Shown here piece after piece: positions 4,281-62,899 of a stretch of 64,000 nt of DNA. Made by a program: the position numbers and the translations under genes. The DNA comes from Mycolicibacterium nivoides (GTDB lineage Bacteria; Actinomycetota; Actinomycetes; Mycobacteriales; Mycobacteriaceae). The notes beneath the pieces are model-generated. The model was given only the letters and a program-made list of their open reading frames with translations, made no database searches and was not told the DNA's origin. Position 1 is the first letter of the stretch. The number at the start of each line of letters is the position of its first letter. The stretch is taken from contig NZ_CP034072.1 in NCBI RefSeq assembly GCF_003855255.1, positions 1,910,240-1,974,239 of the forward strand, in the 5' to 3' direction.

Positions 4281-7070
<2,790 letters not shown>

Positions 7071-7078
7071 TTTCTTTG

Positions 7079-7142
7079 GCGCGAGCAGACGCCGAGGTAC
7101 CCCGAATCGCGACAAATCGGGTACCGGAGCGTCTGCTCGCGC
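7079..7142 (+). terminator. Long hairpin after aceE
   Basis: Outer arms GCGAGCAGACGC (7081-7092) and GCGTCTGCTCGC (7129-7140), extended by two pairs outside, enclose an inner stem GGTACCC / GGGTACC with one bulged base. It starts nine bases after the aceE stop, consistent with termination. The same 12-mer recurs at 14035-14046. Confidence 0.7.
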
Positions 7143-7189
7143 AGGGGTGGTTGGAGGAATCCACCAGAATATTGGCGTAGCTTTTAGGG

Positions 7190-8473: not shown

Positions 8474-8546
8474 ACTGGCCCCACCGGACGTCGGAGCGGC
8501 TGTGACATATTTCGCTGCGGTGAAGGCAATGTCGCATCACATGCAC

Positions 8547-8606
8547 TTTTGTGGGGAACCTACAAAAACATAAGACAAGGTTCATAATCTCTTACACCCC
8601 ACAAAA
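8547..8606 (+). promoter_or_regulatory. FAS-II operon control region with a 10-bp inverted repeat (probable MabR site)
   Basis: TTTTGTGGGG (8547-8556) and CCCCACAAAA (8597-8606) form a perfect inverted repeat 40 bases apart; another ACAAAA at 8562-8567 makes a shorter TTTTGT-N9-ACAAAA pair with the left arm. A -10-like CATAAT lies between the arms at 8583-8588. The region is unusually AT-rich and directly precedes fabD. Binding by MabR is inferred from the known operator location in related species. Confidence 0.6.
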
Positions 8607-8633
8607 CCGTCTTCACAGTGTTCTCTTAATGAC

Positions 8634-9575
8634 GTGCCTCAACCCGTGCTCGCATTGCTTGCTCCCGGACAGGGATCGCAGACCCCCGGCATGCTCTCCC
8701 CTTGGTTGGAGCTGCCCGGTGCGGCCGATCGCCTCGCCACGTGGTCGCAGATCAGCGGCCTGGATCTGGCACGTCTGGGAACCACCGCCACCGCGGAGGA
8801 GATCACCGACACCGCGGTGACGCAGCCGCTGGTGGTGGCCGCCACGCTGCTGGCCTATGAGGAACTGGCCAAGCGCGGCGTTCCCATCGCCGCCGATCCG
8901 GCCGCGACACTAGTCGCCGGCCATTCGGTCGGTGAGATCGCCGCCTACGCCATCGCCGGCGTCATCTCCGCCGACGACGCGGTCAAGCTGGCCGCCACCC
9001 GTGGCGCCGAGATGGCCAAGGCCTGCGCCGTCGAGCCGACCGGCATGTCGGCGGTGCTCGGTGGCGACGAGGCCGAGGTGCTGGCCCGGCTGGAGTCACT
9101 GGACCTGGTCCCGGCCAACCGCAACGCCGCCGGCCAGATCGTGGCCGCCGGTGCGATCGCGGCGCTGGAGAAGCTCGCCGAGGATCCGCCAGCCAAGGCC
9201 CGCGTCCGTCAGCTGGCGACCGCAGGCGCGTTCCACACCCATTACATGGCTTCCGCGCTGGATGGCTACGCCGCCGCAGCCGCGTCTGTAACGACCTCCG
9301 AGCCCACCGCGACACTTCTGTCGAACGCGGACGGCCAGCCGGTCGCCTCGGCTTCCGATGCGATGGAGAAGTTGGTGTCCCAGCTGACCAAGCCGGTGCG
9401 CTGGGATCTGTGCACCGCCACCATGCGGGACCGTTTCCAGGGCGCCGAGCGCGCCGGGATCGTCGAATTCCCGCCGGCAGGCACCCTGGTCGGCATCGCC
9501 AAGCGTGAACTGAAGGGCACACCCACCCGCGCGGTCAAGGCCCCCGCAGACCTGGATGGCTTGGACGAGCTGTAA
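8634..9575 (+). CDS. fabD: Malonyl-CoA:ACP transacylase FabD
   Basis: 313-residue cytosolic enzyme that moves malonate from CoA to AcpM, supplying the extender for FAS-II. The catalytic serine motif GHSVGE (Ser98) and the partner motif GAFHTHYM with the active-site His are present; N-terminal LLAPGQGSQ and VPANRNAAGQIV are typical of the family. The start is GTG 8634 with no clear Shine-Dalgarno sequence, 28 bases after the right arm of the putative MabR repeat, so a short leader or leaderless mRNA is possible. First gene of the five-gene operon. Confidence 0.95.
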   Translation: MPQPVLALLAPGQGSQTPGMLSPWLELPGAADRLATWSQISGLDLARLGTTATAEEITDTAVTQPLVVAATLLAYEELAKRGVPIAADPAATLVAGHSVGEIAAYAIAGVISADDAVKLAATRGAEMAKACAVEPTGMSAVLGGDEAEVLARLESLDLVPANRNAAGQIVAAGAIAALEKLAEDPPAKARVRQLATAGAFHTHYMASALDGYAAAAASVTTSEPTATLLSNADGQPVASASDAMEKLVSQLTKPVRWDLCTATMRDRFQGAERAGIVEFPPAGTLVGIAKRELKGTPTRAVKAPADLDGLDEL

Positions 9576-9587
9576 GTCCAGCAAAAC

Positions 9588-9617
9588 CGAATAACGCAGT
9601 AACGAATAACGCAGTAA
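9588..9617 (+). repeat. Two tandem 15-bp repeats between fabD and acpM
   Basis: The unit CGAATAACGCAGTAA occurs twice head to tail (9588-9602, 9603-9617) and is followed by a further CGA. It sits in the 107-base gap before acpM and is more AT-rich than its surroundings. Confidence 0.9.
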
Positions 9618-9682
9618 CGACCGAACGTCCCGAAATGTCCTCCGCACCCGGAGGGCACTATCAACAACAAGAAGGAGCCATT

Positions 9683-9979
9683 GTGGCCGCCAGTCAAGAA
9701 GAAATCATCGCCGGTCTCGCAGAGATCATCGAAGAGGTCACCGGCATCGAGCCGTCTGAGGTGACCCCGGAGAAGTCGTTCGTCGACGACCTGGACATCG
9801 ACTCGCTGTCGATGGTGGAGATCGCCGTGCAGACCGAGGACAAGTACGGCGTGAAGATCCCCGATGAGGATCTGGCCGGCCTGCGCACCGTCGGTGACGT
9901 CGTCTCCTACATCCAGAAGCTCGAAGAAGAGAACCCCGAGGCTGCCGCCGCCCTGCGCGAGAAGTTTGGCTCGGAATGA
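9683..9979 (+). CDS. acpM: Meromycolate extension acyl carrier protein AcpM
   Basis: 98-residue acidic carrier protein holding the growing meromycolate chain as a thioester on 4'-phosphopantetheine. The attachment motif DIDSLS places the modified serine at Ser41, the same number as in M. tuberculosis AcpM. A C-terminal extension beyond the ~80-residue bacterial ACP core ([18 protein letters not shown]) is the mycobacterial hallmark; here it is shorter than in M. tuberculosis and similar to M. smegmatis. GTG 9683 is chosen because AAGGAG stands 7 bases upstream; a longer in-frame reading from 9635 has no support. It overlaps kasA by four bases (ATGA), indicating translational coupling. Confidence 0.96.
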
Positions 9980-11226
9980 CCAGACCTTCCACTGCTAACG
10001 GAGGCTTCCCGAACGTCGTGGTGACTGCCGTGGAGGCCACCACGGCGCTCGCTGCTGACATCGAGAGCACGTGGAAGGGCCTCCTGGCCGGAGAAAGCGG
10101 CATCCGTGAGTTGACCGACGACTTCGTCACCAAGTGGGACCTCCCGGTGCGTATCGGTGGTCACCTGGTCGATGACGTCGACAGCCACCTGACCCGCATC
10201 GAGCTGCGCCGCAATTCCTATGTGCAGCGCATGTCGTTGGTGCTGGCCCGGCGGCTGTGGAAGAACGCAGGTGCACCCGAGGTCGATCCCGACCGGTTCT
10301 CGGTCGTGATCGGCACCGGCCTCGGTGGCGGCGAGAAGATCGTCGAGACCTACGACGCGATGAACGAGGGCGGGATCCGCAAGGTCAGCCCGCTCGCCGT
10401 TCAGATGATCATGCCCAACGGTGCCGCTGCGGTCGCCGGCCTGGAGCTGGGCGCCCGCGCCGGGGTCATCACCCCGGTGTCGGCGTGTTCGTCAGGGTCC
10501 GAGGCCATCGCCCACGGCTGGCGGCAGATCGTGATGGGTGACGCGGACTTCGCCGTTGTCGGCGGTGTGGAAGGCGGCATCGAGGCACTGCCCATCGCGG
10601 CGTTCTCGATGATGCGTGCCATGTCGACCCGCAACGACGATCCCGCCGGAGCGTCGCGGCCGTTCGACAAGGATCGCGACGGCTTCGTGTTCGGTGAGGC
10701 CGGCGCGATGATGATCATCGAGACCGAGGAGCACGCCCTGGCCCGTGGCGCCAAGCCGCTGGCCCGCCTGTTGGGTGCAGGTATCACCTCGGACGCGTTC
10801 CATATGGTCGCTCCCGCGGACAACGGTCAGCGTGCCGGTGCCGCGATGAAGCGGGCGATGGAAACCGCGGGTCTGGAAGCCAAGGACATCGATCACATCA
10901 ATGCCCACGGCACGGCCACCCCGATCGGTGACACCGCCGAGGCCAACGCCATCCGCGTTGCCGGATGCGAGAACGCCGCGGTCTACGCGCCCAAGTCGGC
11001 GCTGGGTCACTCGATCGGTGCGGTCGGTGCGCTGGAGTCGGTGTTGACGGTGCTCGCGTTGCGCGACGGGGTAATCCCCCCGACGCTTAACTATGAGACA
11101 CCGGATCCTGAGATCGATCTCGATGTGGTTGCGGGCGAGCCTCGTTATGGCGACTACAAGTACGCCATCAACAACTCGTTCGGATTCGGTGGCCACAATG
11201 TGGCTCTGGCGTTCGGGAAGTACTGA
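9976..11226 (+). CDS. kasA: Beta-ketoacyl-ACP synthase KasA
   Basis: 416-residue condensing enzyme of FAS-II that extends AcpM-bound acyl chains by two carbons, working on the earlier elongation steps. The catalytic set is complete and in the known positions: Cys171 ([10 protein letters not shown]), His311 ([13 protein letters not shown]), Lys340 ([10 protein letters not shown]) and His345. Length equals that of the M. tuberculosis enzyme, the target of thiolactomycin-type inhibitors. Start ATG overlaps the acpM stop. A 78-base gap to kasB contains that gene's ribosome site. Confidence 0.97.
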
Positions 11227-49818: not shown

Positions 49819-49946
49819 AATGGGTGAGTATCGCAGTCTTCATCAGCGTCGTCACCGGTATGGGTCGGTATCCCTCAGACCAGCCCCCGTGACGGCCCCA
49901 GCGGGTGAGCGTACGGCGGATCACCCGCGGTGATCCTGGAGTAATC

Positions 49947-51476
49947 GTGACCACACGACCAGCGATAAAAACGTTGGCGGCAGTCCTGGTGTTCGTGCTG
50001 GCGGCCTGTTCCACCGGCAGCCGGGTAGACCTCGGCGACGAATCGTCGGGCAATCTCATCGCGGCCATCGCGGGGGAACCCGATCAGCTCGACCCGCACC
50101 GGACGAGTGCCTATTTCTCGTTCGAGGTGTTGGAGAACGTCTTCGACACCCTGGTCGAGCCCGACGAGGACCTGCAGATGCGCCCGGCGTTGGCGCAGTC
50201 CTGGGAGGTCAGCGATGACCAACTCACCTGGACCTTCCACCTGCGCGACGGCGTGCGCTGGCATGACGGCACTCCGCTGACCGCCGACGACGTGGTGTAT
50301 TCGTACCGCCGCATCATCGACGAGCAGCTGACCAACGTCGACAAGTTCAGTGCCGTCAGCAGTGTCACCGCGCCCGACCCGGCGACCGTGCGGATCACCG
50401 TCCGTCAGCCCACCCCGAACCTGCTGACCAACCTCGGCGGGTTCAAGGGCATGGCGATCGTGCAACGCGCCAACGTCGAAAGCGGGCAGATCGCCACCCA
50501 TCCGATCGGCACCGGCCCCTTCTCGTTCGCCGGCCGCCGCAGCGGCGACTCCATCACCCTGACGGCCAACCCGCACTATTGGGGAGGTGCTCCCCCGGTG
50601 TCCGGGGTGACGTTCCGGTTCATCTCCGAGCCGACGACGGCGTTGTCGGCGCTGCAGGCCGGCGAAATCGACTGGACGGATTCGGTGCCGCCGCAGCGGG
50701 TGGCCCAGTTGCGCGACGACGACTCGCTGACGCTGGCGGTCACACCGGGCAACGACTACTGGTATCTGGCGCTCAACGAAGCCCGGCCGCCGTGGAATGA
50801 CCCACGGGTTCGCGAGGCCATCGCATACGGCATCGACCGTGACGCGATCGCCGCCGCCACCAGCTACCGCACCGCGGAGGTCAATCAGCTGGCGATCCCG
50901 CGCGGCAGCCCGTGGTTCACCGATTATCAGCGCTACCGCTACGACGTGAACGAGGCGCGAAGCCTCCTCCAGGCGTCCGGCGCCGCACCCCAGGACCTCG
51001 ACATGCTGGTCACCAGCGAGTACCCCGAGACCGTCACCGCGGCTCAGATCATCGCCGACAACCTTGCGCCCCTTGACATCACGGTGAACATCCGCACCGT
51101 GGACTTCGCCACCTGGCTCGACGAGCAGAACAACGGCCACTTCGACATGCTGATGATGGGCTGGCTGGGAAACATCGACCCGGACGACTTCTACTACGCC
51201 CAGCACCACACGCACGGCCCGAGCAACGCGCAGAAGTTCTCCGACCCCGAGGTCGACCGCCTGCTGGACGCGGGCCGCACCGAAACCGATGTCGCCGAGC
51301 GAAAGGACATCTACGCCAAAGCCGCGACGCGGATCGCCGATCAGGCCAGCTACATCTACCTGTACAACCCGTCGGTGATCCAGGCCTGGGCCAACAACCT
51401 GTCGGGGTATCAGGTGCGCCGCGACGGCGCCGTCCGGTTCCGCACCGCCGACCTTGATCGAGGTGAAAACTCTTGA
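49947..51476 (+). CDS. ABC transporter substrate-binding lipoprotein, peptide/nickel (SBP_bac_5) family
   Basis: 509 residues. Lipobox LAAC anchors the protein; the SBP_bac_5 domain shows PDQLDPHRTSAYFSFEVLEN, WTFHLRDGVRWHDGTPLTAD and YWYLALNEARPPWNDPRVRE. It captures oligopeptides or similar cations and hands them to the two permeases encoded next. GTG 49947 has GGAG 6 bases upstream. The order SBP-permease-permease-double ATPase matches DppABCD of M. tuberculosis (Rv3666c-Rv3663c). Ends in a four-base overlap with the first permease. Confidence 0.9.
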   Translation: MTTRPAIKTLAAVLVFVLAACSTGSRVDLGDESSGNLIAAIAGEPDQLDPHRTSAYFSFEVLENVFDTLVEPDEDLQMRPALAQSWEVSDDQLTWTFHLRDGVRWHDGTPLTADDVVYSYRRIIDEQLTNVDKFSAVSSVTAPDPATVRITVRQPTPNLLTNLGGFKGMAIVQRANVESGQIATHPIGTGPFSFAGRRSGDSITLTANPHYWGGAPPVSGVTFRFISEPTTALSALQAGEIDWTDSVPPQRVAQLRDDDSLTLAVTPGNDYWYLALNEARPPWNDPRVREAIAYGIDRDAIAAATSYRTAEVNQLAIPRGSPWFTDYQRYRYDVNEARSLLQASGAAPQDLDMLVTSEYPETVTAAQIIADNLAPLDITVNIRTVDFATWLDEQNNGHFDMLMMGWLGNIDPDDFYYAQHHTHGPSNAQKFSDPEVDRLLDAGRTETDVAERKDIYAKAATRIADQASYIYLYNPSVIQAWANNLSGYQVRRDGAVRFRTADLDRGENS

Positions 51477-52459
51477 CCCAACAGGCTTTGCGCACGATCC
51501 GCGACAAACATCCGATCATGGAGTTCCTGGCCCGGCGGCTGGTGTACTCGGCGGTGGTGCTCATCGGGGTCCTGATCGTGGTGTTCGCCCTGGTGCACCT
51601 GGTGCCGGGCGACCCGGTCCGTATCGCACTCGGCACCCGCTACACACCGCAGGCCTACGACGCTCTGCGTGCGGCCAGCGGCATGGACCGGCCCATCGTC
51701 GAGCAGTTCTTCTCCTACCTCGGCTCGGCACTGACCGGCGACCTCGGCGTCAGCTTCCGCAACGGCGACCCGGTCACCGTGACCCTGCTGGATCGGTTGC
51801 CGGCCACGTTGTCCCTCGGGGTGGTCGGCATCCTCATCGCGCTGGTGATCGCGCTGCCCGCCGGGATCTTCTCGGCGCTGAGGGAGGGCCGGGTCAGTGA
51901 TGCGATCGTGCGGGTCGCCAGCCAGTTCGGGGTGTCGGTGCCGGATTTCTGGTTGGGCATCCTGCTGATCGGCGTGTTCGCCTCGACACTGGGCTGGCTG
52001 CCCACCTCGGGATACCGCCCGCTGCTGGGAGATCCGGGCGGCTGGCTGCGCCACATCGTCCTGCCCGGGCTGACGGTCGGCCTGGTGGCCGGCGCCATCA
52101 TGACGCGCTACGTGCGCTCGGCGGTGCTGGAGGTGGCCGCCATGGGCTACGTCCGTACCGCGCGGTCGAAGGGCCTGGCGCCACCGGTGGTCACCTTCCG
52201 GCACATCGTGCGCAACGCGTTGCTGCCGGTGTTGACCATCACCGGGATCCAGCTGGCCACGATCCTGGGCGGGGTGATCGTGGTGGAAGTGGTGTTCGCC
52301 TGGCCGGGCCTGGGCCGGTTGGTGTTCAATTCGGTTGCCGCACGGGACTATCCGGTGATCCAGGGTGCGGTGTTGTTGATCGCCGTGTTGTTCCTGCTGA
52401 TCAACCTGCTGGTGGACCTGCTGTATGCGATCGTCGACCCGAGGATCCGGCTGTCATGA
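51473..52459 (+). CDS. ABC transporter permease, DppB/OppB type
   Basis: 328-residue membrane protein with about six helices and the inner-membrane-component signature region YVRTARSKGLAPPVVTFRHI, preceding the EAA-loop contact with the ATPase. TTG 51473 overlaps the stop of the binding-protein gene and has GAGGTG upstream; ATG 51518 is an alternative shortening the protein by 15 residues. The N-terminal helix LVYSAVVLIGVLIVVFALVH and LVPGDPVRIALG are typical of DppB. Confidence 0.9.
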   Translation: MTQQALRTIRDKHPIMEFLARRLVYSAVVLIGVLIVVFALVHLVPGDPVRIALGTRYTPQAYDALRAASGMDRPIVEQFFSYLGSALTGDLGVSFRNGDPVTVTLLDRLPATLSLGVVGILIALVIALPAGIFSALREGRVSDAIVRVASQFGVSVPDFWLGILLIGVFASTLGWLPTSGYRPLLGDPGGWLRHIVLPGLTVGLVAGAIMTRYVRSAVLEVAAMGYVRTARSKGLAPPVVTFRHIVRNALLPVLTITGIQLATILGGVIVVEVVFAWPGLGRLVFNSVAARDYPVIQGAVLLIAVLFLLINLLVDLLYAIVDPRIRLS

Positions 52460-53337
52460 CCACCACCGAGGATTCCAGGGTCGCATCCTGGCGGTTGCTG
52501 TTGTCGAATCCGGTGACCGCGATCAGCGCCGCGGTGCTGATCGCGGTGCTGGTCGTCGCGGTGTCCGCATCGTGGATCGCCCCGTACGGCATCAACGACG
52601 TCGACGTGCCCAGCGCGCTGCAGGGCCCGGGTACCGCGCACTGGTTCGGCACCGATGAGCTCGGCCGCGACGTGTTCTCCCGCGTGCTGGTGGCCATCGC
52701 GGCCTCGCTTCGGGTCGCGGTGGTCTCCGTCGCGCTGGCCGCGGTGATCGGCGTGCTGGTCGGTGTGCTCGCCGGTTATCGGGGCGGCTGGATCGACACC
52801 GTGGTGATGCGCGTCGTCGACGTCATGTTCGCGTTCCCGGTGTTGCTGCTCGCGCTGGCGATCGTGGCGGTCCTCGGCCCCGGCATCACCACCACGATGC
52901 TGGCCATCGGGATCGTCTACATCCCGATCTTCGCGCGGGTCGCCCGGGCCTCGGCGCTGGGCGTGCGGGTGGAGCCGTTCGTCGCGGTGTCGCGGAGTAT
53001 GGGCACCGGCGACGGCTACATCCTGATTCGGCACATCCTGCCGAACATCGCCGGGCCGTTGATCGTTCAGCTCTCGCTGTCGCTGGCGTTCGCGATCCTG
53101 GCCGAGGCCGCGCTGTCGTTTCTGGGGTTGGGCATCCAGCCACCGCAACCGTCGCTGGGCCGGATGATCTTCGACGCCCAGGGATTCGTCACGCTGGCCT
53201 GGTGGATGGCGGTGTTCCCGGGTGCGGCGATCTTCGTGATGGTGTTGGCGTTCAACCTGTTCGGTGACGGTCTCCGCGACGTGCTCGATCCGAAACAGCG
53301 GACCTCGATCGAGGCGAGAAGGGCGGGCCGCGGATGA
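52456..53337 (+). CDS. ABC transporter permease, DppC/OppC type
   Basis: 293-residue partner permease: N-terminal helix (AISAAVLIAVLVVAVSASWI), the DppC segment HWFGTDELGRDVFSRVL and the signature SRSMGTGDGYILIRHILPNI. Forms the membrane pore together with the DppB-type subunit. ATGA overlaps at both ends show strict coupling in the operon. Confidence 0.91.
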   Translation: MTTTEDSRVASWRLLLSNPVTAISAAVLIAVLVVAVSASWIAPYGINDVDVPSALQGPGTAHWFGTDELGRDVFSRVLVAIAASLRVAVVSVALAAVIGVLVGVLAGYRGGWIDTVVMRVVDVMFAFPVLLLALAIVAVLGPGITTTMLAIGIVYIPIFARVARASALGVRVEPFVAVSRSMGTGDGYILIRHILPNIAGPLIVQLSLSLAFAILAEAALSFLGLGIQPPQPSLGRMIFDAQGFVTLAWWMAVFPGAAIFVMVLAFNLFGDGLRDVLDPKQRTSIEARRAGRG

Positions 53338-54899
53338 ATCAGCCGGTGCTGAAGGTCGATGACCTCCGGGTGACGATCGGTCGCCGCGAGATCGTGCGGG
53401 GTGTGTCGTTCGAGGTGCACCGTGAGCAGACCGTCGGCATCGTCGGCGAGTCCGGGTCCGGCAAGTCGATGACGGTGCTGTCCGCCACGGGGCTTTTGGA
53501 CGCGCCGGGGGCGGTGGTCGCCGGGAGCAGCCTTCTGACCGGTGGCACCCAATTGGTCGGGGCCTCGGCCCGGGCTCTGCGGGCCGTGCACGGCAGCCGG
53601 ATCGGGTTCGTCTTCCAGGATCCCGGGACGTCTCTGAACCCGCTGCTGACCCTGGAACGCCAGATCACCGAAACCCTTGAGACACACCGCAAGATGACAC
53701 GGCGGCAGGCCCGGGTGCGGGCCGGTGAGCTGCTCGAGGCGGTCGGGCTCTCCCCTGATCGGCTCGATGCGTACCCACATCAACTGTCCGGCGGGCAGCG
53801 CCAGCGGGTGATGATCGCGATCGCCCTGGCCTGCGATCCGGAACTGCTCATCGCCGACGAACCGACGACCGCGCTCGATGTCACCACCCAGGCCCAGATC
53901 ATCGACCTGGTGGCCGATCTGCAGCGGGATTTCGGTACCGCGGTGGTGTGGATCAGTCACGATCTCGGGGTCATCGGCCAGGTGGCCGACGAGGTGACCG
54001 TGCTGCGTGACGGCGAGGCCGTCGAGCAGGCGCCGATCCTGCAGGTGTTCGACCACCCGCAGCACTCCTATACCCGCGAGTTGCTGGCGGCCCGCCCGTT
54101 GCTCGACGGCGCGGGACCCGAACCCGCGCCGGCTGATGCACCGGTTCTGTTGCAGGCCAACGGTCTTGATGTTCGGTACGGCCCGGTGCATGCCGTCAAG
54201 GGCGTCTCGTTTCAGCTCCGGCGCGCGACAACGCTGGGGATCGTCGGCGAATCGGGCTCGGGCAAGTCGACGGTAGCCGCCGCGCTGACCGGGCTGGCCA
54301 CACCATCGGCGGGCACCGCCACCCTGGACGGCGAAGACGTGCTCGCCGGCGGGCGTGCACTGCGCCGACGGATCAGCTTGGTGTTCCAGGATCCGTTCGC
54401 CTCGCTCGATCCGCGGGCCCGGGTCAGCGCCGCGATCGGTGAGCCGCTGCGCGTGCACCGGCTGGCCGCAGGGGGCCAGGCGCGCGCCGCGCGGGTGGCC
54501 GAGCTGCTCGAACTCGTCGGCCTGCCTGCCGATTTCGCGTCGCGCTATCCGCACGAGCTGTCCGGAGGTCAGCGTCAGCGCGTCAGCATCGCCCGGGCGC
54601 TGGCCACCGAACCCGATGTGCTCATCCTCGATGAGTCGACGGCGTCCCTGGATGTGTCGGTGCAGTCGCGAGTCCTGGACCTGTTGTCCGGGCTGCAGCG
54701 CGAGCTGGGGTTGACCTACCTGTTCATCGCCCACGACTTGGCAGTCGTGCACCGGATGTGTCACGACGTGCTGGTGATGCGGGCCGGTGAGGTGGTCGAA
54801 TACGGCCCGGCCGCCGAGTTGTTCACCGCCCCCGAGCACTCCTACACCCGCACCCTGCTGGCCGCGGTTCCGCCCGCGAGGCCGCGTGAGAAGGTGTGA
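53334..54899 (+). CDS. Fused double ATPase of the peptide ABC transporter (DppD+DppF type)
   Basis: 521 residues with two complete ABC domains. Domain one: Walker [13 protein letters not shown], signature [12 protein letters not shown], Walker [14 protein letters not shown]. Domain two: [28 protein letters not shown] and [13 protein letters not shown]. In the second Walker B the usual catalytic Glu is kept (DE), so both sites may hydrolyse ATP. The fusion replaces separate DppD and DppF proteins, as in other mycobacteria. Three bases before the following SDR gene. Confidence 0.93.
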
Positions 54900-54902
54900 G
54901 CC

Positions 54903-55643
54903 ATGACTGCTCTGAATGGAAAGGTCGCGTTGGTCACCGGTGCCTCATCGGGTCTCGGCGCGGCGGTCGCCCAACTGTTCGCCGCCCGCGGCGCCTCGGT
55001 GTTCGGTGTCGCCCGCGACGCCGAACGGATGGCGACGGTGTTCGAGGACGTGCCCGGCGGGGCCTACGCCTCGGTGGACATCTCTTCCTCGGATGCCTGC
55101 CGCGACGCGGTGGCGCAATGCGTCGAGAAGTTCGGCCGCCTCGACGCCTTGATCAATGTCGCCGGGTTCCACCAGATGCGCCACACCGCGTCGGTGACCG
55201 ACGAGGACTGGGACAAGGATCTCGCCGTCAACCTCAACGGGCCGTTCTTCCTGTGCCGGGCGGCCCTGCCGCACTTGCTGGAGGCCGGCGGCAACATCGT
55301 CAATGTCGCGTCCATCGCCGGAATCGAGGGCGAGGTCTACTCGGCGGGATACTGCGCCGCCAAGCACGGCCTGGTCGGTCTCACCCGTGCCCTGGCCATC
55401 GAGTTCACCTCGGAGCGGCTGCGCGTCAACGCGGTGTGCCCGGGCGGCATGCTCACCCCGCAGACCACCGAGTTCGCCGCACCGGAGAACGCCGACTGGA
55501 ATCTGATCATGAGGATCGCCGCGCCTCGCGGAATGATGGACGTGGCCGATGTCGCCAAGACCATCGCCTTCCTGGCCAGCGACGACGCCGCCGCCGTGCA
55601 CGGCGCGGTCTACATCGTCGATGCCGGCAAGACAGCGGGATGA
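54903..55643 (+). CDS. Short-chain dehydrogenase/reductase
   Basis: 246-residue SDR with TGASSGLGAAV, INVAG in place of NNAG, VNVASIAG and catalytic YCAAK. Starts three bases after the ATPase gene and is probably read from the transporter transcript; whether it acts on the imported compound is unknown. Confidence 0.86.
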   Translation: MTALNGKVALVTGASSGLGAAVAQLFAARGASVFGVARDAERMATVFEDVPGGAYASVDISSSDACRDAVAQCVEKFGRLDALINVAGFHQMRHTASVTDEDWDKDLAVNLNGPFFLCRAALPHLLEAGGNIVNVASIAGIEGEVYSAGYCAAKHGLVGLTRALAIEFTSERLRVNAVCPGGMLTPQTTEFAAPENADWNLIMRIAAPRGMMDVADVAKTIAFLASDDAAAVHGAVYIVDAGKTAG

Positions 55644-56103: not shown

Positions 56104-57636
56104 TCAGCTGGGTTCGAGCGCCGCGGCGGGAGCGCCCTCGGCCGGAGGCTGCGCCAGGAGGGGTTCAGGCGCATAGACTTCCGGGCCGTCCGGCCAGAGC
56201 CGATGGATGATCGGGCAGCCGATCAGGGCCACCAGGCCTGAGGCGATCAGGCCACCGTCGATGCCTCCGATCCAGGGCGCCAACAGCCCGGTATAGGCGT
56301 CGTTCACCGAGAACAGCATGCCGACCAGCGCCGCGACGGACCACAGGGCGAGCGTTCGTGGATTCAATCCGCCCTTGTACCAGTAGATTCCGCCACGCAA
56401 CCGACGGTTGAACACCTGCAGGTCGTCGACGTCGTAATACCCGCGTCGCTTCACGTGCCCGTAGACCACGATCACCACCCACGGGATGGAGAAGCACACC
56501 AGCAGCTGCAGATAGATCGACATGCCGCTCTCGATCTTGTCGTAGAAGTGCCCGACGTAGACCAGGACGGTCGCCAGCCCGCACGCCAACAGCGTGGCCT
56601 GGACGCGGTTGAACCGCGGGATGATGGCGCTGGTGTCCAGCCCGGTGCCGTAGGTGTTGATGACGGCTTGCGTGGTTCCCGAGGCCAGACCGAGGTAGAG
56701 CAGGGCCGGGATGTACCACAGCGGCACCACGTTGACGATGCCGAACACGAACGGTGTGCCGGCGTCGGCGAAGCCGGCGTTGAAAGCCGCCGCCGAGGTG
56801 AACGCACCCCACAGGAAGCAGACGCCCATTCCGAAGATGCCGCCGAGGAACAGGGTGAGCACGATGCGGCGGTCGGAGTACTTCGCCGGGGAGATATGGC
56901 GGGTCCAGTCGCCGGCATAGGCGGCGTACGACGACACCGTCGCCGCGCACAGCAGCGCCGACACCAGCCAGGTGCTCAGGTGCGAACCGAACGCGTAGTG
57001 TCCGGTGCCGGCGTACGACGCACTGAAATCGCGGCTGTAGACGAACAATCCGACGATCATGCACAGCCCGGCCGTCGGCAGGATGAACTTCAGCGAGGCC
57101 ATCATGCTGTGGTGTCCGTAGACGGAGATGACGGTGACGATGATGCTCAGCACCGCATAGGCGATCAGCCGCACGACCTCGTTGTCGGGCATGTCGAAAA
57201 ACCGGATCAGTGCCGATGCCAGTGCGTCGCCTCCGGTCCAGATCGAGATGGCCGCGAAGGCCAGACTGGCCGTGCCCTCGAGAATCGATCCGATCAATCG
57301 ACCGGCCACCCCGAAGTACGCGCCGCTGGACACCGGATTGTTGGTACCCGAGTGCGGGCCCATCAGACCGGACAGGCCGAGGAACACCGCCCCGACCGCG
57401 GATCCGGCCATGATGGCGGTCGCAGCCGACCACCACCCCAGACCGAACGCGATCGGGTACCAGCCGATGATGAACAACCCGAACGTCATGCTGCCGCCGA
57501 GCAGCAGAATGTAGAGGTTTCTGGGCCGCGAGCGTCGTTCGCCCTCGGGGATGAAATCGATGCCATGTTGCTCCATGCGCGGGAGCGAAAGGCGGGACGC
57601 AGTGGCCAGGCCCTTGTCAAAGTCCTTGTCTACCAT
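56104..57636 (-). CDS. NCS1-family nucleobase/hydantoin-type permease
   Basis: 510-residue permease with ~12 membrane helices; the N-terminus HGIDFIPEGERRSRPRNLYI and GWYPIAFGLGWWSAATAIMA are typical of the cytosine/purine/allantoin/hydantoin (NCS1) family. It probably imports a nitrogen-rich substrate by cation symport. ATG 57636 is taken as start; the longer reading overlaps the upstream gene. Last gene of the operon with DUF1116, GS-like and amidotransferase-like genes (8-base gap), so the imported compound is likely their substrate. Confidence 0.87.
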   Translation of the reverse strand: MVDKDFDKGLATASRLSLPRMEQHGIDFIPEGERRSRPRNLYILLLGGSMTFGLFIIGWYPIAFGLGWWSAATAIMAGSAVGAVFLGLSGLMGPHSGTNNPVSSGAYFGVAGRLIGSILEGTASLAFAAISIWTGGDALASALIRFFDMPDNEVVRLIAYAVLSIIVTVISVYGHHSMMASLKFILPTAGLCMIVGLFVYSRDFSASYAGTGHYAFGSHLSTWLVSALLCAATVSSYAAYAGDWTRHISPAKYSDRRIVLTLFLGGIFGMGVCFLWGAFTSAAAFNAGFADAGTPFVFGIVNVVPLWYIPALLYLGLASGTTQAVINTYGTGLDTSAIIPRFNRVQATLLACGLATVLVYVGHFYDKIESGMSIYLQLLVCFSIPWVVIVVYGHVKRRGYYDVDDLQVFNRRLRGGIYWYKGGLNPRTLALWSVAALVGMLFSVNDAYTGLLAPWIGGIDGGLIASGLVALIGCPIIHRLWPDGPEVYAPEPLLAQPPAEGAPAAALEPS

Positions 57637-57643
57637 GCGGTTG

Positions 57644-58321
57644 TCACTTTCGGACGAGCCATTCGAATGGCTTGAGATGTGCTGGGTTTTCGGTGTAGAT
57701 GAGCTCGGGGTGCCATTGGACCCCGAAGCAGTTCTCACCTTCGATTGCCTCGACGACACCGTCGGGGCTCCACGCAGTCGCCGTGAGCGATCCGGTGTCA
57801 GAAACTGCCTGGTGGTGTTGGGAATTCACCTCGATCAGGTTCGGGAACAACTCGCCTGCCAGTGATCCCGGCTTGATCTCGACGCCGTGCCGGATCGAGG
57901 CGTATCCCCCGTCGACGGTGTCGACCATGTGCTTGCGCACACCGTAGGCACGCAGATCCTGGTGCAACCGCCCGCCGTGGGCCACCGCGAGCATCTGTGC
58001 GCCGCGGCAGATTCCGAACGTCTTGATGCCACGCCGGATCGATCGTTCGAGGATCGCGAGTTCCACCTGATCTCGCTGCTCGTCGACACCCATGAGCGTG
58101 GCCCGGGTGGTTTCGCCGTAGCGGCGGGGATGGATATCCCCGCCGCTCAGCAGCAACAGCGCGTCGATCCGATCGGCCAGCCGCAGCGCCCGCGCGGGCT
58201 CGAGCGTCGCGGGGATCAGAACTGGTACACCTTCGGCCCGCACGACTGCGTCGATATGGGTCCGGTGGCTCGCCAGGAAGCCATCGGGACCGAGGCCACA
58301 GACAACGCCGACGACTGTCAT
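57644..58321 (-). CDS. Class I glutamine amidotransferase-like gamma-glutamyl hydrolase (peptidase C26, PuuD-like)
   Basis: 225 residues. The catalytic triad is visible: Cys in FGICRGAQML, His and Glu in FGVQWHPEL; LLLSGGDIHPRRYGE is the family's oxyanion region. PuuD-type enzymes cut gamma-glutamyl bonds, releasing glutamate from gamma-glutamylated intermediates. Coupled by ATGA to the GS-like gene, the same pairing as Rv2859c with glnA4 (Rv2860c) in M. tuberculosis. Confidence 0.87.
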   Translation of the reverse strand: MTVVGVVCGLGPDGFLASHRTHIDAVVRAEGVPVLIPATLEPARALRLADRIDALLLLSGGDIHPRRYGETTRATLMGVDEQRDQVELAILERSIRRGIKTFGICRGAQMLAVAHGGRLHQDLRAYGVRKHMVDTVDGGYASIRHGVEIKPGSLAGELFPNLIEVNSQHHQAVSDTGSLTATAWSPDGVVEAIEGENCFGVQWHPELIYTENPAHLKPFEWLVRK

Positions 58322-59700
58322 AGTTCCAGCAGGTACCTTGCGCGTTCAGCGTCGGAGACCAACAGGTGGTCGGACTCCCACTCCTTGAGTTTCATCTCCG
58401 TGTACTCGCTGACGAACGCCGGTGAGAACGTCTTGTGCACCAAGGGATCCGCCTGGAAGGCCTCGACCGCCTCCAACAGCGTGCGGGGTAGTACCGGCGC
58501 ATCGGAGTTGTGCGACGCCTGCTCGAGCGGTTTCCCCGGATCCAGGCCTTCCCGGATGCCTTCCAGGCCGGCGGCGATCATGAGCGCCGATGCGAAGTAG
58601 TAGTTCGCGGCGCTGTCCGCGGCCCGGTATTCGATGCACGCCCGGTTCTGCGGCAGCCGCACGGTGCACGAGCGGTTGTTCGATCCGTAGCTGACGCGCG
58701 TCGGAGCCCAGGAGATCTGGCCGTCGGCCAGCCGCGGTGTGAGCCTCCGATAGGAGTTGGTGGTGGGGTTGCCCAGCGCGGTGAACGCGGGCGCGTGTTT
58801 GAGGACGCCCGCGATGAACTGGTAGGTGGTCTGCGTCCACTCCCCCGCGGTGTCACCGAGCCGGAACGCATTGCGTCCGGTCTCAAGGTCCACCAGGCTC
58901 ATGTTCAGGTGTGCACCCGATCCCCACATGCTGGCGTACGGCTTGGGCATGAAGCTTGCGAGCAGGCCGCATTCCTTGGCGATCTGCTTGACCGCGAAGC
59001 GGAACAGCGTCATCCGGTCGGCCATCTCCAGGACCGGGGCGTGGCCGATACTGAGCTCGTACTGCCCGTCACCGCCTTCGTGGCCGAACGCGTAGACACC
59101 GAAATCGAGCTCGCTGAGGTAGCCGACGAGCTTGTCGAGAAACTCCGAGGCATCCAGGGTCGCCTCGACGTCGTAGGCCGGTGAGGGCTTGAGCGATCCA
59201 CTGCGCGCGACCGGAACCAGCCGGTCACGCTGCCCCTCGAGGGATTCCGGCCGGAACACGTAGAACTCGGGCTCCACACCCAGGTGCACCGAATAGCCCT
59301 GCGCGGCAGCCGCTTCGACCTGCCCACGCAGTGCGTTGCGCGGACACAGCGCGAAAGGTTCGCGGCCGCCATAACTCATGTCGGCGATCATCCATGCATA
59401 CCGGCGATCCCACGGCAGGATCTTCAGAGTGCTCAGGTCCGGCACCCCGACCACCTCGTCCTCGGTGGGGTTCATGTTGCCGATACCGCCGAATCCGCGG
59501 GGCGTGTACCGCTCGGCGCCGGCGACCAGATCAGCGAAGTGCGTCATCGGGACGACTTTCGACTTGGGCCGGCCGAGGACGTCGATCCAGTTCGCCATGG
59601 CGTACTTGACACCTTGAGCACCAAGCTCTTTCGCAACACGCGAATGCTCGGGATCGAGGCTGTACAAGGTGTCGTTGCGTTCGAAGATGGTGTCGGTCAT
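58318..59700 (-). CDS. Glutamine-synthetase-family gamma-glutamyl ligase (GlnA4/PuuA-like)
   Basis: 460 residues of the GS fold: MANWIDVLGRPKSKVVP in the beta-grasp domain, LGVEPEFYVF with metal-binding Glu, GSGAHLNMSL, NPTTNSYRRL and NNRSCTVRLPQ followed by CIEYRAADSAANYYFASALM. The features resemble GlnA3/GlnA4-type enzymes that glutamylate polyamines or ethanolamine rather than ammonia-using GlnA1; the adenylylation-site Tyr of GlnA1 is not evident. It would activate an amine substrate with glutamate and ATP. ATGA overlaps with both operon neighbours. Confidence 0.87.
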   Translation of the reverse strand: MTDTIFERNDTLYSLDPEHSRVAKELGAQGVKYAMANWIDVLGRPKSKVVPMTHFADLVAGAERYTPRGFGGIGNMNPTEDEVVGVPDLSTLKILPWDRRYAWMIADMSYGGREPFALCPRNALRGQVEAAAAQGYSVHLGVEPEFYVFRPESLEGQRDRLVPVARSGSLKPSPAYDVEATLDASEFLDKLVGYLSELDFGVYAFGHEGGDGQYELSIGHAPVLEMADRMTLFRFAVKQIAKECGLLASFMPKPYASMWGSGAHLNMSLVDLETGRNAFRLGDTAGEWTQTTYQFIAGVLKHAPAFTALGNPTTNSYRRLTPRLADGQISWAPTRVSYGSNNRSCTVRLPQNRACIEYRAADSAANYYFASALMIAAGLEGIREGLDPGKPLEQASHNSDAPVLPRTLLEAVEAFQADPLVHKTFSPAFVSEYTEMKLKEWESDHLLVSDAERARYLLEL

Positions 59701-60965
59701 GCGTTTCTCTCCTTTGTGATGTGGATGAGGGCTTCGGCTGCGCGCAGGAATGGTTCCAGCGGGGCACGCGCGACCCCGCCGCCGATCTGTCCGCCTCCGG
59801 CACCGGCGATACCGATGTCGAGGTAGGGGGTGATGCCGGTCGCGGCGATGCGCCGCACGTCGAATCCGACGGGGGTGCCCCGGTAGTCCAGGGCGGGGAT
59901 GCGCAGGTCGGGATGTTCGCCCGCACAGATGTCGTACATCTCGACCGTGCGCGCGATCATGGTCGCGGCGTTGCCTCCGCTGGAACGTTGCAGTGGCAGG
60001 GCGGCGGCCTGCGCCACGCCGCCGAGTCCGACGACCTCGGTGATGACGCTCTCGCCACCCATGAACTCCATGTCCTTCTCGGTGAATCCCGGGTACAGCC
60101 GCGCAGCCTCGAAAGTCGGCAGCGGACCGCAGAACCAGCGGTCCCCGAGGCCGGCCACTTGGACACCGAACTCCTTGCAGGAGAAAGCCATCGATGTGAC
60201 CAGGCTGCTGGCGCCGCTGCCTCGCATGGCATCCGCCATCACCTTCGCCGCGGCCATCGCCAGACGCAGGAAGAAGTAGTCACCGCCGGAGAGGTAATCG
60301 GCCAGCACCCGGGCGTCCTCCGCATCGGCCGCGGTGATCGCCGTCAGAAGCGCGCGGGTGAACAGCGTCGTCGCCGCGGTATTGCGGCTGTGCAGCTCGT
60401 CGCCCATGGTCAACGCCCGCTGGATGATCGGCTTGAGCAGGACGCCGCCGTGCGCCCGTACCACCCGGTCCAGCGCTGGGCCCACGTGGTCACGCAGGAA
60501 GTCCAGGTTGATGCGGGTGTCGTCGCTGTAGGTGCCGTAGTTGAGCCGGTCGGCGGTGTCACCCTCGTACAGCGTGCAGTACGCGCGGTTGCCGGTGCCG
60601 GCATCCTCGACGACAAGGACCGGCATCGACGCGGTGGTCACGCCGGCCAGTGAGCCCACCACACCCAGCGTTTGGCAGCCGGCGACGACGACCTCGCCGC
60701 GTTCAAACGCCCGTTCGGCGCCGGCGCGGTCGGTGGCGAAACCCTCGTAGATCGCAGCACCGAGCAGGCCGTCACGCTGGCCACCGGTGTAGGCGGCGAA
60801 GGGCAGGGTCGGACCCGAAGTCAGGATGAGATCGCGCCGCATCCCGGCGACCTCCTCGATCGCGGGACGAACTCCCGTCAGCCGCGGTTCGGCGGTGAAC
60901 AGGTTCTCCAACGCCGCGGCGTTTGCGTCCGTGGTGGTCACCGATGGGTGAGCGGTCTGGCTCAT
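59697..60965 (-). CDS. DUF1116 protein, AllG (YlbE)-like
   Basis: 422 residues, the full length of the DUF1116 family. Conserved-looking parts are GEVVVAGCQTLGVVGSLAG, MGDELHSRNTAATTLF, FLRLAMAAAKVMADAMRGSG and GGGQIGGGVARAP. E. coli YlbE (AllG) is one of three proteins (AllF, AllG, AllH) needed for oxamate carbamoyltransferase in allantoin breakdown. No AllF or AllH partner is in this window; instead it leads an operon with GS-like and amidotransferase-like enzymes. ATG 60965 has AAGGGA upstream. It is divergent from the LacI gene and has a LacI-type operator just ahead. Confidence 0.84.
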   Translation of the reverse strand: MSQTAHPSVTTTDANAAALENLFTAEPRLTGVRPAIEEVAGMRRDLILTSGPTLPFAAYTGGQRDGLLGAAIYEGFATDRAGAERAFERGEVVVAGCQTLGVVGSLAGVTTASMPVLVVEDAGTGNRAYCTLYEGDTADRLNYGTYSDDTRINLDFLRDHVGPALDRVVRAHGGVLLKPIIQRALTMGDELHSRNTAATTLFTRALLTAITAADAEDARVLADYLSGGDYFFLRLAMAAAKVMADAMRGSGASSLVTSMAFSCKEFGVQVAGLGDRWFCGPLPTFEAARLYPGFTEKDMEFMGGESVITEVVGLGGVAQAAALPLQRSSGGNAATMIARTVEMYDICAGEHPDLRIPALDYRGTPVGFDVRRIAATGITPYLDIGIAGAGGGQIGGGVARAPLEPFLRAAEALIHITKERNA

Positions 60966-61008
60966 GCGGTCGTCCCTTCTCTGGATCCGGCGGAACAGCT
61001 GGTGTGCA

Positions 61009-61029
61009 AAAACCTTTTGGCATATGTTG
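61009..61029. promoter_or_regulatory. LacI-type operator, copy 1
   Basis: AAAACCTTTTGG followed by CATATGTTG, 44 bases from the DUF1116 start; nearly the same sequence recurs at 61098-61118. Confidence 0.6.
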
Positions 61030-61096
61030 GGCACAACGAGCTGAACAAACGGATCTTCTGAGCTTGCTGCCCGACATGAGCGGAAGTTCCGTTTGA

Positions 61097-61119
61097 CAAA
61101 ACGTTTTGGCTTATGCTGG
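61097..61119. promoter_or_regulatory. LacI-type operator, copy 2 (perfect palindrome)
   Basis: CAAAACGTTTTG (61097-61108) is a 12-bp palindrome with central CG, the hallmark of LacI-family sites, followed by GCTTATGCTGG as in copy 1. It overlaps a TTGACA -35-like element at 61093-61098 in front of the lacI gene. Confidence 0.65.
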
Positions 61120-61214
61120 TATGGAACCGTAGCGCAGTGGCTCGCGACGGGTCAAGGGTCAAATGTGATCGCAAGCACAACAAGGTCAACCGACCGGGAG
61201 ATGGAGCAGCGCAA

Positions 61215-62261
61215 GTGGCAAACATCAAGGACGTGGCGCGCTACGCCAACGTGTCCCCAACGACGGTGTCGCACGTCCTCAACGGCCGCGGTCGCGTCGC
61301 ACCGGAGACCAGGGACCGGGTGCTCGAGGTCGCCCAGCGGCTCGGCTACACGGCCAGCGCCCATGCCCAGCAACTTGTCACGCGCCGCAGCAGGATCATC
61401 GCGATCCAGATGCCCGACCTCGACGCGAACGGGCGGGGTACCGCACTGGTGCCCAAGTCCGAGTCGGAGTACTTCCTCGAATTGATCAACGGGGCCGCCG
61501 CCGCGGCCACCGACGCGAAGTACGCGCTCATCGTCGTGTCACCCGGGGTGGACGCATCGTCGATGCGAAGCTTCGGTGTCGACGGCATGATCATCGTCGA
61601 CCCCAAGGGCTCCGAACAGTTCCTGCAGTCGTCCTTCGCCGACCAGTACCCGGTGGTCACCACCGGTGAACCGGTCGTCGCGGCGGGCCGGCCCTGCTTC
61701 GTCGTCGACAACGATCACGAGGCGGCCGCCCGTGAAATCTTCGATCACTTTGCCGCCCAGGGACGTTCGCAACCCGCCATCATCACCGACACCACGTCGC
61801 GGTCCTACATCCGCGATATTCAGCACGCCTACGGGGAATGGTGCAACGCCAACAACGTCCGGCCGGCGTCGGTCGCGGTGGCCGAGGCGTCACCGACCGA
61901 AATGGGTAAGGCGCTGGCATCTCTGCGCAACGGGCCCTCCCCCGCCGACGCCATCTACACGAGCTCCGACGAGTGCGCCATCGCGCTACTGGACGCGGCC
62001 CGCGAAGCGGGGGTGTCGGTGCCGGGCGAGCTGGCGTTGGCCAGCGCCGTCGACAGCTCGATCCTACGAGTCACCAATCCTCCGGTGACCGGAGTCTTCC
62101 TGCACCCCAGGGACATCGGGGCGCGGGCAGTGGAAAGCCTGACCGATCTGATCGCACGAAAGGACCCCGACTGCCAACTGCCACCGTTGGACAGCACACG
62201 AACCCTGATCCCGACGCGTGTGGTGGTGCGCGCGTCCACAGCCATGGAAGCGAGTCGATGA
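61215..62261 (+). CDS. LacI-family transcriptional regulator
   Basis: 348 residues with N-terminal helix-turn-helix and hinge (NIKDVARYANVSPTTVSHVL, residues ~3-22; RVLEVAQRLGYTASAHAQQL) and a periplasmic-binding-protein-like effector domain. GTG 61215 is chosen by the family start MANIKDVA and GGAG upstream; a longer reading begins at the promoter. It is divergent from the DUF1116 operon and followed by the coupled reductase gene. It most probably represses both directions through the paired operators; ligand would be the pathway substrate. Confidence 0.88.
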   Translation: MANIKDVARYANVSPTTVSHVLNGRGRVAPETRDRVLEVAQRLGYTASAHAQQLVTRRSRIIAIQMPDLDANGRGTALVPKSESEYFLELINGAAAAATDAKYALIVVSPGVDASSMRSFGVDGMIIVDPKGSEQFLQSSFADQYPVVTTGEPVVAAGRPCFVVDNDHEAAAREIFDHFAAQGRSQPAIITDTTSRSYIRDIQHAYGEWCNANNVRPASVAVAEASPTEMGKALASLRNGPSPADAIYTSSDECAIALLDAAREAGVSVPGELALASAVDSSILRVTNPPVTGVFLHPRDIGARAVESLTDLIARKDPDCQLPPLDSTRTLIPTRVVVRASTAMEASR

Positions 62262-62899
62262 AAGTTCTGGTGATCAGCGCGAGCCCGCGCGAGGACGGCA
62301 ACTCCCACCTGCTGGCCGAATCCGCCTGCGCCGGTGCGGAATCAGTGGGCCACGAAGTGGAGCATGTGTTCCTCGACCAATACGTGGACCGCATGTTGGA
62401 CAACTGCAGAAGCTGCCGAACGGCAGCCGGCTTCTGCTCGCTCGCCGACCGTTACGAATCGCTCCTCCTAGACAAGATGCTGCCTGCCGACGGCATCATC
62501 TATGCGATGCCCCTGTACTTCTACGGCATGCCGGCACGGCTCAAGACGGTCTTCGACCGGCTGTTCTGCTATACCGCCAACAGTGCGCCGCAACAGGAGC
62601 AGGTGGTCGGAGGCATCACCGACAAGACCGTCGGCGTGCTGATCTCCTGCGAAGAGAGCTACGTCGGGGCCACGGCGGGAGTCATCGCCCAATTCCAGGA
62701 GCTGACAAGGTATCTCGACCAGAGCCTGGCCGGAGTGGTGGTGGGCAATGCCAACAGCCGCGGAGAGATCGCATGCGACCCGACCGATCCCCTGTCCCGC
62801 GCGCGGGATCTGGGTGCGCGACTGTTCGACATCAGAGTCACCGACTACCGGCTGACCACTGTGCGGTCGAACAAGGTGTGGGATCCAGTGGGTTGCTGA
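62258..62899 (+). CDS. Flavodoxin-fold NAD(P)H-dependent FMN reductase family protein
   Basis: 213 residues, flavodoxin-like fold: VISASPREDGNSHLL binds FMN phosphate, and AMPLYFYGMPARLKTVFDR is the conserved second region. A CxxC-like pair NCRSCRT plus CSLAD recalls iron-sulfur flavoproteins, with cysteines C47, C50 and C57 approximately. ATGA overlap with lacI shows they form one transcript, so a redox step in the regulated pathway is possible. Confidence 0.86.
   Translation: MKVLVISASPREDGNSHLLAESACAGAESVGHEVEHVFLDQYVDRMLDNCRSCRTAAGFCSLADRYESLLLDKMLPADGIIYAMPLYFYGMPARLKTVFDRLFCYTANSAPQQEQVVGGITDKTVGVLISCEESYVGATAGVIAQFQELTRYLDQSLAGVVVGNANSRGEIACDPTDPLSRARDLGARLFDIRVTDYRLTTVRSNKVWDPVGC

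Follow-up and report, generated by a model that had tools for sequence, protein, structure and literature searches.

The stretch analyzed here, 64,000 nucleotides of Mycolicibacterium nivoides DNA from a single-contig genome of 6.9 Mb (hereafter, the window), hosts a minus-strand operon whose first gene encodes a DUF1116 (AllG-like) protein, followed by genes for a glutamine synthetase (GS)-like ligase, a C26-family hydrolase, and an NCS1-type permease. A divergent gene pair encodes a LacI-family regulator and a reductase (Table 1). The original prediction, made from the sequence alone, had the first three genes joined by ATGA overlaps, the permease gene 8 bases further on, and the LacI-reductase pair pointing away from the operon. 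Both overlaps indeed read ATGA (59697-59700 between the DUF1116 and ligase genes, and 58318-58321 between the ligase and C26 genes), and the pair does lie on the opposite strand (plus, 61215-62899), its two genes overlapping by 4 bases. The permease gene adjoins on the same strand as described, although 7 bases, not 8, separate the C26 stop from its start.

Table 1. Predicted genes and operators of the DUF1116 operon and the divergent pair (positions in the window)
Feature	Position	Strand	Details
AllG/DUF1116 protein, GS-linked subfamily	59697-60965	minus	ATG at 60965, open frame to 61034; PF06545 222.8 bits (cut-off 27)
GS-like gamma-glutamyl-amine (organic amide) ligase	58318-59700	minus	PF00120 (Gln-synt_C) 286 bits
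C26 gamma-glutamyl hydrolase, PuuD-like	57644-58321	minus	PF07722 (Peptidase_C26) 165 bits
NCS1-type permease	56104-57636	minus	ATG at 57636; PF02133 (Transp_cyt_pur) 164.6 bits
LacI-family regulator	61215-62261	plus	GTG start; PF00356 and PF13377 (Peripla_BP_3)
Flavodoxin-like NAD(P)H/FMN reductase	62258-62899	plus	PF02525 (Flavodoxin_2), PF03358
LacI-type operator, promoter-proximal, GCAAAAACCTTTTGGC	61006-61021		predicted
LacI-type operator, second copy, GACAAAACGTTTTGGC	61095-61110		predicted; 89 bases from first

The proposed check of whether DUF1116 and GS-like genes are neighbors elsewhere gave a clear answer. Neighbors were scored within 7 kb with one query set throughout, and DUF1116 genes were assigned to a GS type or an AllF type by score rather than by tree. 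A GS-like gene was found in 36 of the 40 GS-type loci, none of which contained AllF or carbamate kinase, whereas the 59 AllF-type genes (located in 58 stretches) had AllF beside 46, carbamate kinase beside 38, and GS beside none. Since a randomly chosen gene would have a GS gene within 7 kb in only ~3% of cases (12 GS-family matches per 6.9 Mb), we rejected a chance neighborhood, and there is strong evidence that the association between DUF1116 and GS-like genes is real and recurrent. The four GS-type loci without GS comprise two short contigs (L006 and L051) and two true exceptions (L014 and L109). In addition, a C26 gene occurred in 20 of the GS-type loci and a glutaminase gene in 12, with one or the other hydrolase present in 30.

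Within the genus, DUF1116 was present in 33 of 198 genomes, the window's own included, at 44 places; 41 of these were fetched, 2 belong to the own genome, and 1 partial match (G172) was excluded. From the phylum outside the genus, we fetched 40 of 49 places (20 of 20 low-scoring and 20 of 29 high-scoring), together with 3 of 188 matching plasmid records. A plasmid of Rhodococcus opacus 1CP carries orthologues of the DUF1116, GS-like, and C26 genes (L094). Further GS-type loci (from the order, named genomes, and plasmids) were picked by sequence and not by context, and class-level matches of ≤413 bits were left out of these additions (six had been fetched earlier). We refer to the locus layouts by our own labels, types A, B, C, and D, the window being type B; at least three operon layouts occur in the GS-linked subfamily. 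Across 18 type-B loci, the pairwise distances of DUF1116, GS, NCS1, and LacI correlate at 0.80-0.96, a range that includes shared ancestry and is consistent with these genes traveling as a unit. A second AllG gene of the same genome (C1:1475807) also lies beside GS-like genes, in a different operon with the order SDR (short-chain dehydrogenase/reductase), DUF1116, SDR, unnamed protein, two GS-like genes, esterase, and SDR, close to genes for a GntR regulator, an amino-acid permease, and a glutaminase. Operons of layout D also encode a 358-residue protein with a Cys-rich stretch (L003:5620-6696, minus strand), for which no Pfam match was found, and the 120 relatives listed of 247 are unnamed or called "hypothetical protein".

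The window DUF1116 protein clears the Pfam domain cut-off by a wide margin (Table 1), is 92% and 91% identical to the proteins of M. porcinum and M. peregrinum, respectively, and shares 38% identity with E. coli YlbE/AllG over 411 residues. A maximum-likelihood tree built from 90 DUF1116 proteins placed all 28 GS-linked rows inside one clade of 31 (support 100/100) and all 45 AllF-linked rows outside it. A quick tree of 109 rows placed 36 GS-linked rows together with 11 database proteins plus L006 and L051, leaving L014 and L109 outside. The sole solved DUF1116 structure that we found, 3clq, is titled "uncharacterized protein", and Pfam names the family (PF06545) "Oxamate carbamoyltransferase subunit AllG", a name that is very probably wrong for the GS-linked subfamily.

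Specific residues distinguish the two types. The AllF-type letters, with which E. coli AllG agrees, are H51, P64, Q185, N236, R263-N264-G265, D304, and D307, and the GS-type letters, with which the window protein agrees, are T51, G64, R185, R236, mostly FSC at 263-265, M304, and E307. Thus, relative to the AllF type, the window protein carries H51T, P64G, Q185R, N236R, RNG263-265 to FSC, D304M, and D307E, while G190, D191, H194, and R196 (GDxxHxR), K243, and E312 are common to both. The GS-type letters were read from the 28 GS-linked rows plus L014, L051, and L006, and the AllF-type letters from 39 of 45 rows (two rows of L040 and those of L069, L070, L071, and L073 were excluded); L025, L066, and other partnerless rows belong to neither column. 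Among 45 aligned members, 44 of which are database proteins taken from the 120 listed of 2148 matches, 77 columns are invariant, as expected of a working enzyme. R142, N144, R185, and R236 are invariant in this alignment and are not the AllF-type letters; together with the retained GDxxHxR, K243, and E312, they suggest that GS-linked DUF1116 may be enzymatically active and have acquired a new ligand. These marks now separate the GS-linked from the AllF-linked proteins, the former being tied to what would be glutamate-tagged nitrogen catabolism.

AllG is best known from the oxamate carbamoyltransferase (OXTCase) of E. coli, which, in the accessible part of PMC11326118, needs AllF, AllG, and AllH (fdrA, ylbE, and ylbF) and reversibly forms oxamate and carbamoyl phosphate from oxalurate and phosphate. 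As we read that partial text, AllFGH breaks a bond linking an amide nitrogen to a carbonyl carbon. The window operon resembles that system in having AllG/DUF1116, with the same core GDxxHxR, K243, and E312, as its first gene, but it differs in its GS-like ligase and gamma-glutamyl hydrolase and in the changed AllF-type residues. It also differs in its missing partners, as the original prediction had supposed for the locus and wished to see checked across the genome: AllF gave no match in the whole genome with two queries (control genomes G098 and G009 were positive with one of the two), AllH gave none by PF11392, on which all our AllH statements rest (the E. coli control was positive), and carbamate kinase, searched within 7 kb of DUF1116 to the extent that the window covers it, was not found there, nor was AllF.

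The ligase of the window has as its best PDB relatives 9qur, a glutamate-methylamine ligase, and 7cql, named a type III glutamate-ammonia ligase. It retains the GS motifs NSYRR, GSGxH, and NNRS. In all 24 type B and C ligases, the ammonium-site Asp is replaced by Thr, and a Ser that we take to have a role at the same site is replaced by Gly (19) or Ala (5). The Asp-to-Thr change is as expected for organic-amine ligases, for which the accessible text of PMC11335346 describes the loss of Asp50'. A quick GS tree (support values not shown) united the type B and C ligases in one branch beside the methylamine-type ligases, and the two GS genes of layout D (as in L003) came from two other GS lineages; DUF1116 therefore has ligase partners from more than one GS lineage. 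The window ligase lies below the cut-offs of the curated models for GlnA, type III (TIGR03105, 393.4 versus 469.6 bits), and PuuA (NF045547, 221.5 versus 650 bits). Sequence comparison groups it with methylamine-type ligases and not with PuuA or ammonia GS, in a data set without any GlnA4 sequence. GMAS (GlnT, type III) is its closest ligase family in both the PDB and the quick tree, although the window clade forms a separate sister branch under the TIGR03105 cut-off.

The hydrolase belongs to Peptidase_C26 by its domain score, contains the nucleophile motif GICRG and HPE, and is 35% identical to E. coli PuuD. Among the 18 type-B operons, 14 have C26 without glutaminase and 4 (L022, L023, L024, and L104) have glutaminase without C26, with both never found together. 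These four share the DUF1116, GS, NCS1, and LacI genes with the others but arrange them differently; L024 has LacI, DUF1116, NCS1, GS, and glutaminase, in this order and on the same strand. Since two unrelated families replace one another, the molecule hydrolyzed is probably glutamine or a close gamma-glutamyl amide. The permease passes the PF02133 threshold and falls below that of TIGR00800 (71 versus 353 bits), and a PDB search gave no sequence relative of it. A reductase gene is present in 13 of the 40 GS-type loci, in one of which (L024) it is a remnant.

We propose, tentatively and at somewhat less than an even chance, that the window contains an inducible catabolic gamma-glutamylation operon in which DUF1116 splits a gamma-glutamyl conjugate and leaves glutamine or a simple gamma-glutamyl amide. 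The permease would import a small nitrogen compound, which the ligase, with ATP, would join to the gamma-carboxyl of glutamate. The DUF1116 protein, from a subfamily that may have split from the AllFGH-type carbamoyltransferase subunit (OXTCase family) with many of its most conserved residues changed, would then cut the conjugate at its substrate-side C-N bond, and the C26 hydrolase, or a glutaminase in some relatives, would convert the resulting glutamine or amide to glutamate and ammonia. LacI would control both the operon and its reductase through paired operators. We infer the bond cleaved and the order of the steps from the OXTCase analogy and the alternation of C26 and glutaminase; that alternation is also the main reason for our view that DUF1116 probably releases glutamine. 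As far as the accessible literature goes, the scheme is similar to PuuADP (putrescine), AtdA/NpaA (aromatic amines), and GlnA4 (ethanolamine) in combining a ligase without the ammonium-site Asp, a C26-type hydrolase, and a permease. It is unlike them in the constant presence of DUF1116 and in its NCS1 permease, and by Pfam the window operon has no gene of the PuuB/PuuC or ring-dioxygenase type. From the gamma-glutamylation and de-glutamylation route first envisaged, what stands is a recurrent DUF1116 subfamily that, without AllF or AllH, is tied to ligase, hydrolase, and LacI genes; the chemistry is put forward only conditionally here. The statement that no such pathway was known also held, given that our literature search, with partial coverage of subscription papers, found neither a link between DUF1116 and GS-like genes nor a description of this way of stripping nitrogen from amine-like compounds. 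These are known families in a new combination, and if DUF1116 does cleave gamma-glutamyl conjugates, this would be a new C-N bond cleavage reaction that also informs the role of AllG in OXTCase.

Several observations weigh against this proposal. The 90-protein tree carried a long-branch warning, with one long branch (L040) meeting the GS-linked clade, and the smallest clade holding all GS-linked rows in the 109-row tree had a support of only 0.467. Related rows share ancestry, so the 36 loci with GS are not 36 independent events. The two true exceptions, L014 and L109, lack not only a GS gene but also R236, and in 10 of the 40 GS-type loci (some at contig ends) neither hydrolase was found within 7 kb. 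Layout D, with its two GS genes, SDRs, and esterase, contains other enzymes that could perform the C-N step there. Moreover, the accessible text of PMC11335346 presents the C26 enzymes of aniline-type pathways as presumably undoing the ligation, and the hydrolase therefore need not act last.

We consider it a serious if rather unlikely explanation that the operon is an ordinary one for amine degradation (Puu/Ipu/Atd type) and that DUF1116 catalyzes some later, unconnected reaction of the carbon skeleton once this has been freed. The E. coli puu cluster likewise combines a ligase, a C26 hydrolase, and a permease; oxidoreductases occur in layout D, a reductase in the window layout, and an alcohol-dehydrogenase-like gene after DUF1116 in L107. 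Yet DUF1116 stays with the ligase across differing permeases, regulators, and GS lineages, a constancy that a step tied to the conjugate fits better than one tied to the skeleton. It is unlikely, too, that the GS-like ligase has replaced AllF as a direct partner, making gamma-glutamyl phosphate from which DUF1116 would transfer the gamma-glutamyl moiety to a nitrogen, of an amide or a ureide, that is beyond the reach of GS alone (compare AllFGH with carbamoyl phosphate and oxamate). AllF-, GS-like, and ATP-grasp-type enzymes work through acyl phosphates. The partners observed for DUF1116 include AllF and GS-like ligases as well as the ATP-grasp protein of L109, the window genes for AllG and the ligase overlap, and the OXTCase reaction is reversible (PMC11326118, accessible part), all of which would suit such an arrangement; against it, the ligase looks complete, with several GS motifs kept, and the two GS genes of layout D differ from each other. 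In L109 itself (4576-10181, plus strand), DUF1116 adjoins ATP-grasp, asparagine-synthase-like, and Asp/Asn-hydroxylase-like proteins, and these genes may form a small biosynthetic cluster.

It is very improbable that DUF1116 has remained a carbamoyltransferase of the oxamate type and functions in the absence of AllF and AllH. The 38% identity to E. coli AllG speaks for it, and AllH was not found in any of the 13 mycobacteria whose sole AllG locus is of the AllF type, which indicates that subunit make-up varies; these points are outweighed by the lack of AllF or carbamate kinase near all 40 GS-type loci, the changes at H51, Q185, N236, RNG263-265, D304, and D307, and the need of the E. coli enzyme for all three genes (PMC11326118, as far as accessible). 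We regard as decidedly unlikely the boldest version of our own proposal, in which the operon degrades ureides (urea, ureido acids, or hydantoin-type compounds) in a way that differs from both urease and urea amidolyase. Ligation of glutamate to a ureido nitrogen would give an N-acylurea resembling oxalurate, from which DUF1116 would release glutamine together with either carbamate or carbamoyl phosphate; glutamate and ammonia would then be recovered by C26 or glutaminase. That no carbamate kinase was found nearby argues against carbamoyl phosphate as the product. The type-C locus L009 adjoins homologues of three E. coli proteins, namely AllE, GlxK, and AllW (an allantoin permease), and no AllE match was found in the fetched stretches of the other four type-C loci (L016, L044, L106, and L107). 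For gamma-glutamylurea in bacteria, the accessible literature yielded only papers on imaging or radiolabelling probes.

In all 18 type-B loci (the nineteenth, L020, a 3.4-kb fragment, was excluded), a palindrome that matches GCCAAAACGTTTTGGC with ≤3 mismatches lies by the DUF1116 start; 16 loci have two copies, and in 13 of these the copies are 79-90 bases apart. It was found in none of 17 other DUF1116 loci, a comparison set of our own selection, and at least one site occurred in 1 of 900 shuffled promoters. The consensus was built from the window and its close relatives, and those loci are thus not independent support. In L019, L021, and L105 (just after lacI) and in L101 (before DUF1116), the reductase gene does not overlap lacI, and an operator-like copy with 3-4 mismatches is located just upstream of it (at ≤4 mismatches, 0.73 sites are expected by chance per 16.6 kb); these copies indicate that the reductase probably belongs to the LacI regulon. 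The neighboring ABC transporter and SDR genes (49905-55643) were left out of the unit because no operator copy was found there. A palindrome of the form TGTG..CACA, presumably CRP-like, was also seen in the window (61164-61179), in L017 (near 9124), and in L018 (near 7520), either in the stretch that separates lacI from the DUF1116 gene or at the start of lacI.

Across the own genome, the operator pattern with ≤2 mismatches occurred at four places, two of them at the window promoter, compared with one place for the reversed control pattern. We rejected the idea of a pathway distributed across a larger LacI regulon. Of the two places beyond the window promoter, one is C1:6311005, and the other, C1:4297875 (L144:9876), was found in 3 of 6 genomes searched. 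The latter is flanked by genes for an amino-acid-type permease and a nitrilase-like protein, near a LacI-type gene of its own and with an arginase-like gene beyond (all named by eye).

According to the original prediction, the locus would be a combination of known functions if AllF, AllH, and allantoin genes existed elsewhere in the genome and the ligase were clearly GlnA4 for ethanolamine. Allantoinase homologues are indeed present, exceeding the TIGR03178 cut-off at three places (G000:C1:6373437, 269880, and 4738704), but AllF and AllH were not found. In the accessible parts of the respective papers, AllF was formerly annotated as an acyl-CoA synthetase or CoA ligase, Pfam 00549 (PMC11326118), the allFGHK genes were named as candidates (PMC3364942) and described in nitrifiers (PMC12625717), and ylbE served merely as an insertion site (PMC7677707). 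Among the mycobacterial loci, those of type A (L026-L039) are operons of AllF, AllG, carbamate kinase, and isochorismatase. A plasmid of Aminobacter sp. SR38 (L096:5851-19110) carries fdrA, DUF1116, a ring-opening amidohydrolase, carbamate kinase, and DUF2877 in a row, and this gene row suggests a further role for AllFGH relatives with barbiturate or cyanuric-type ureides.

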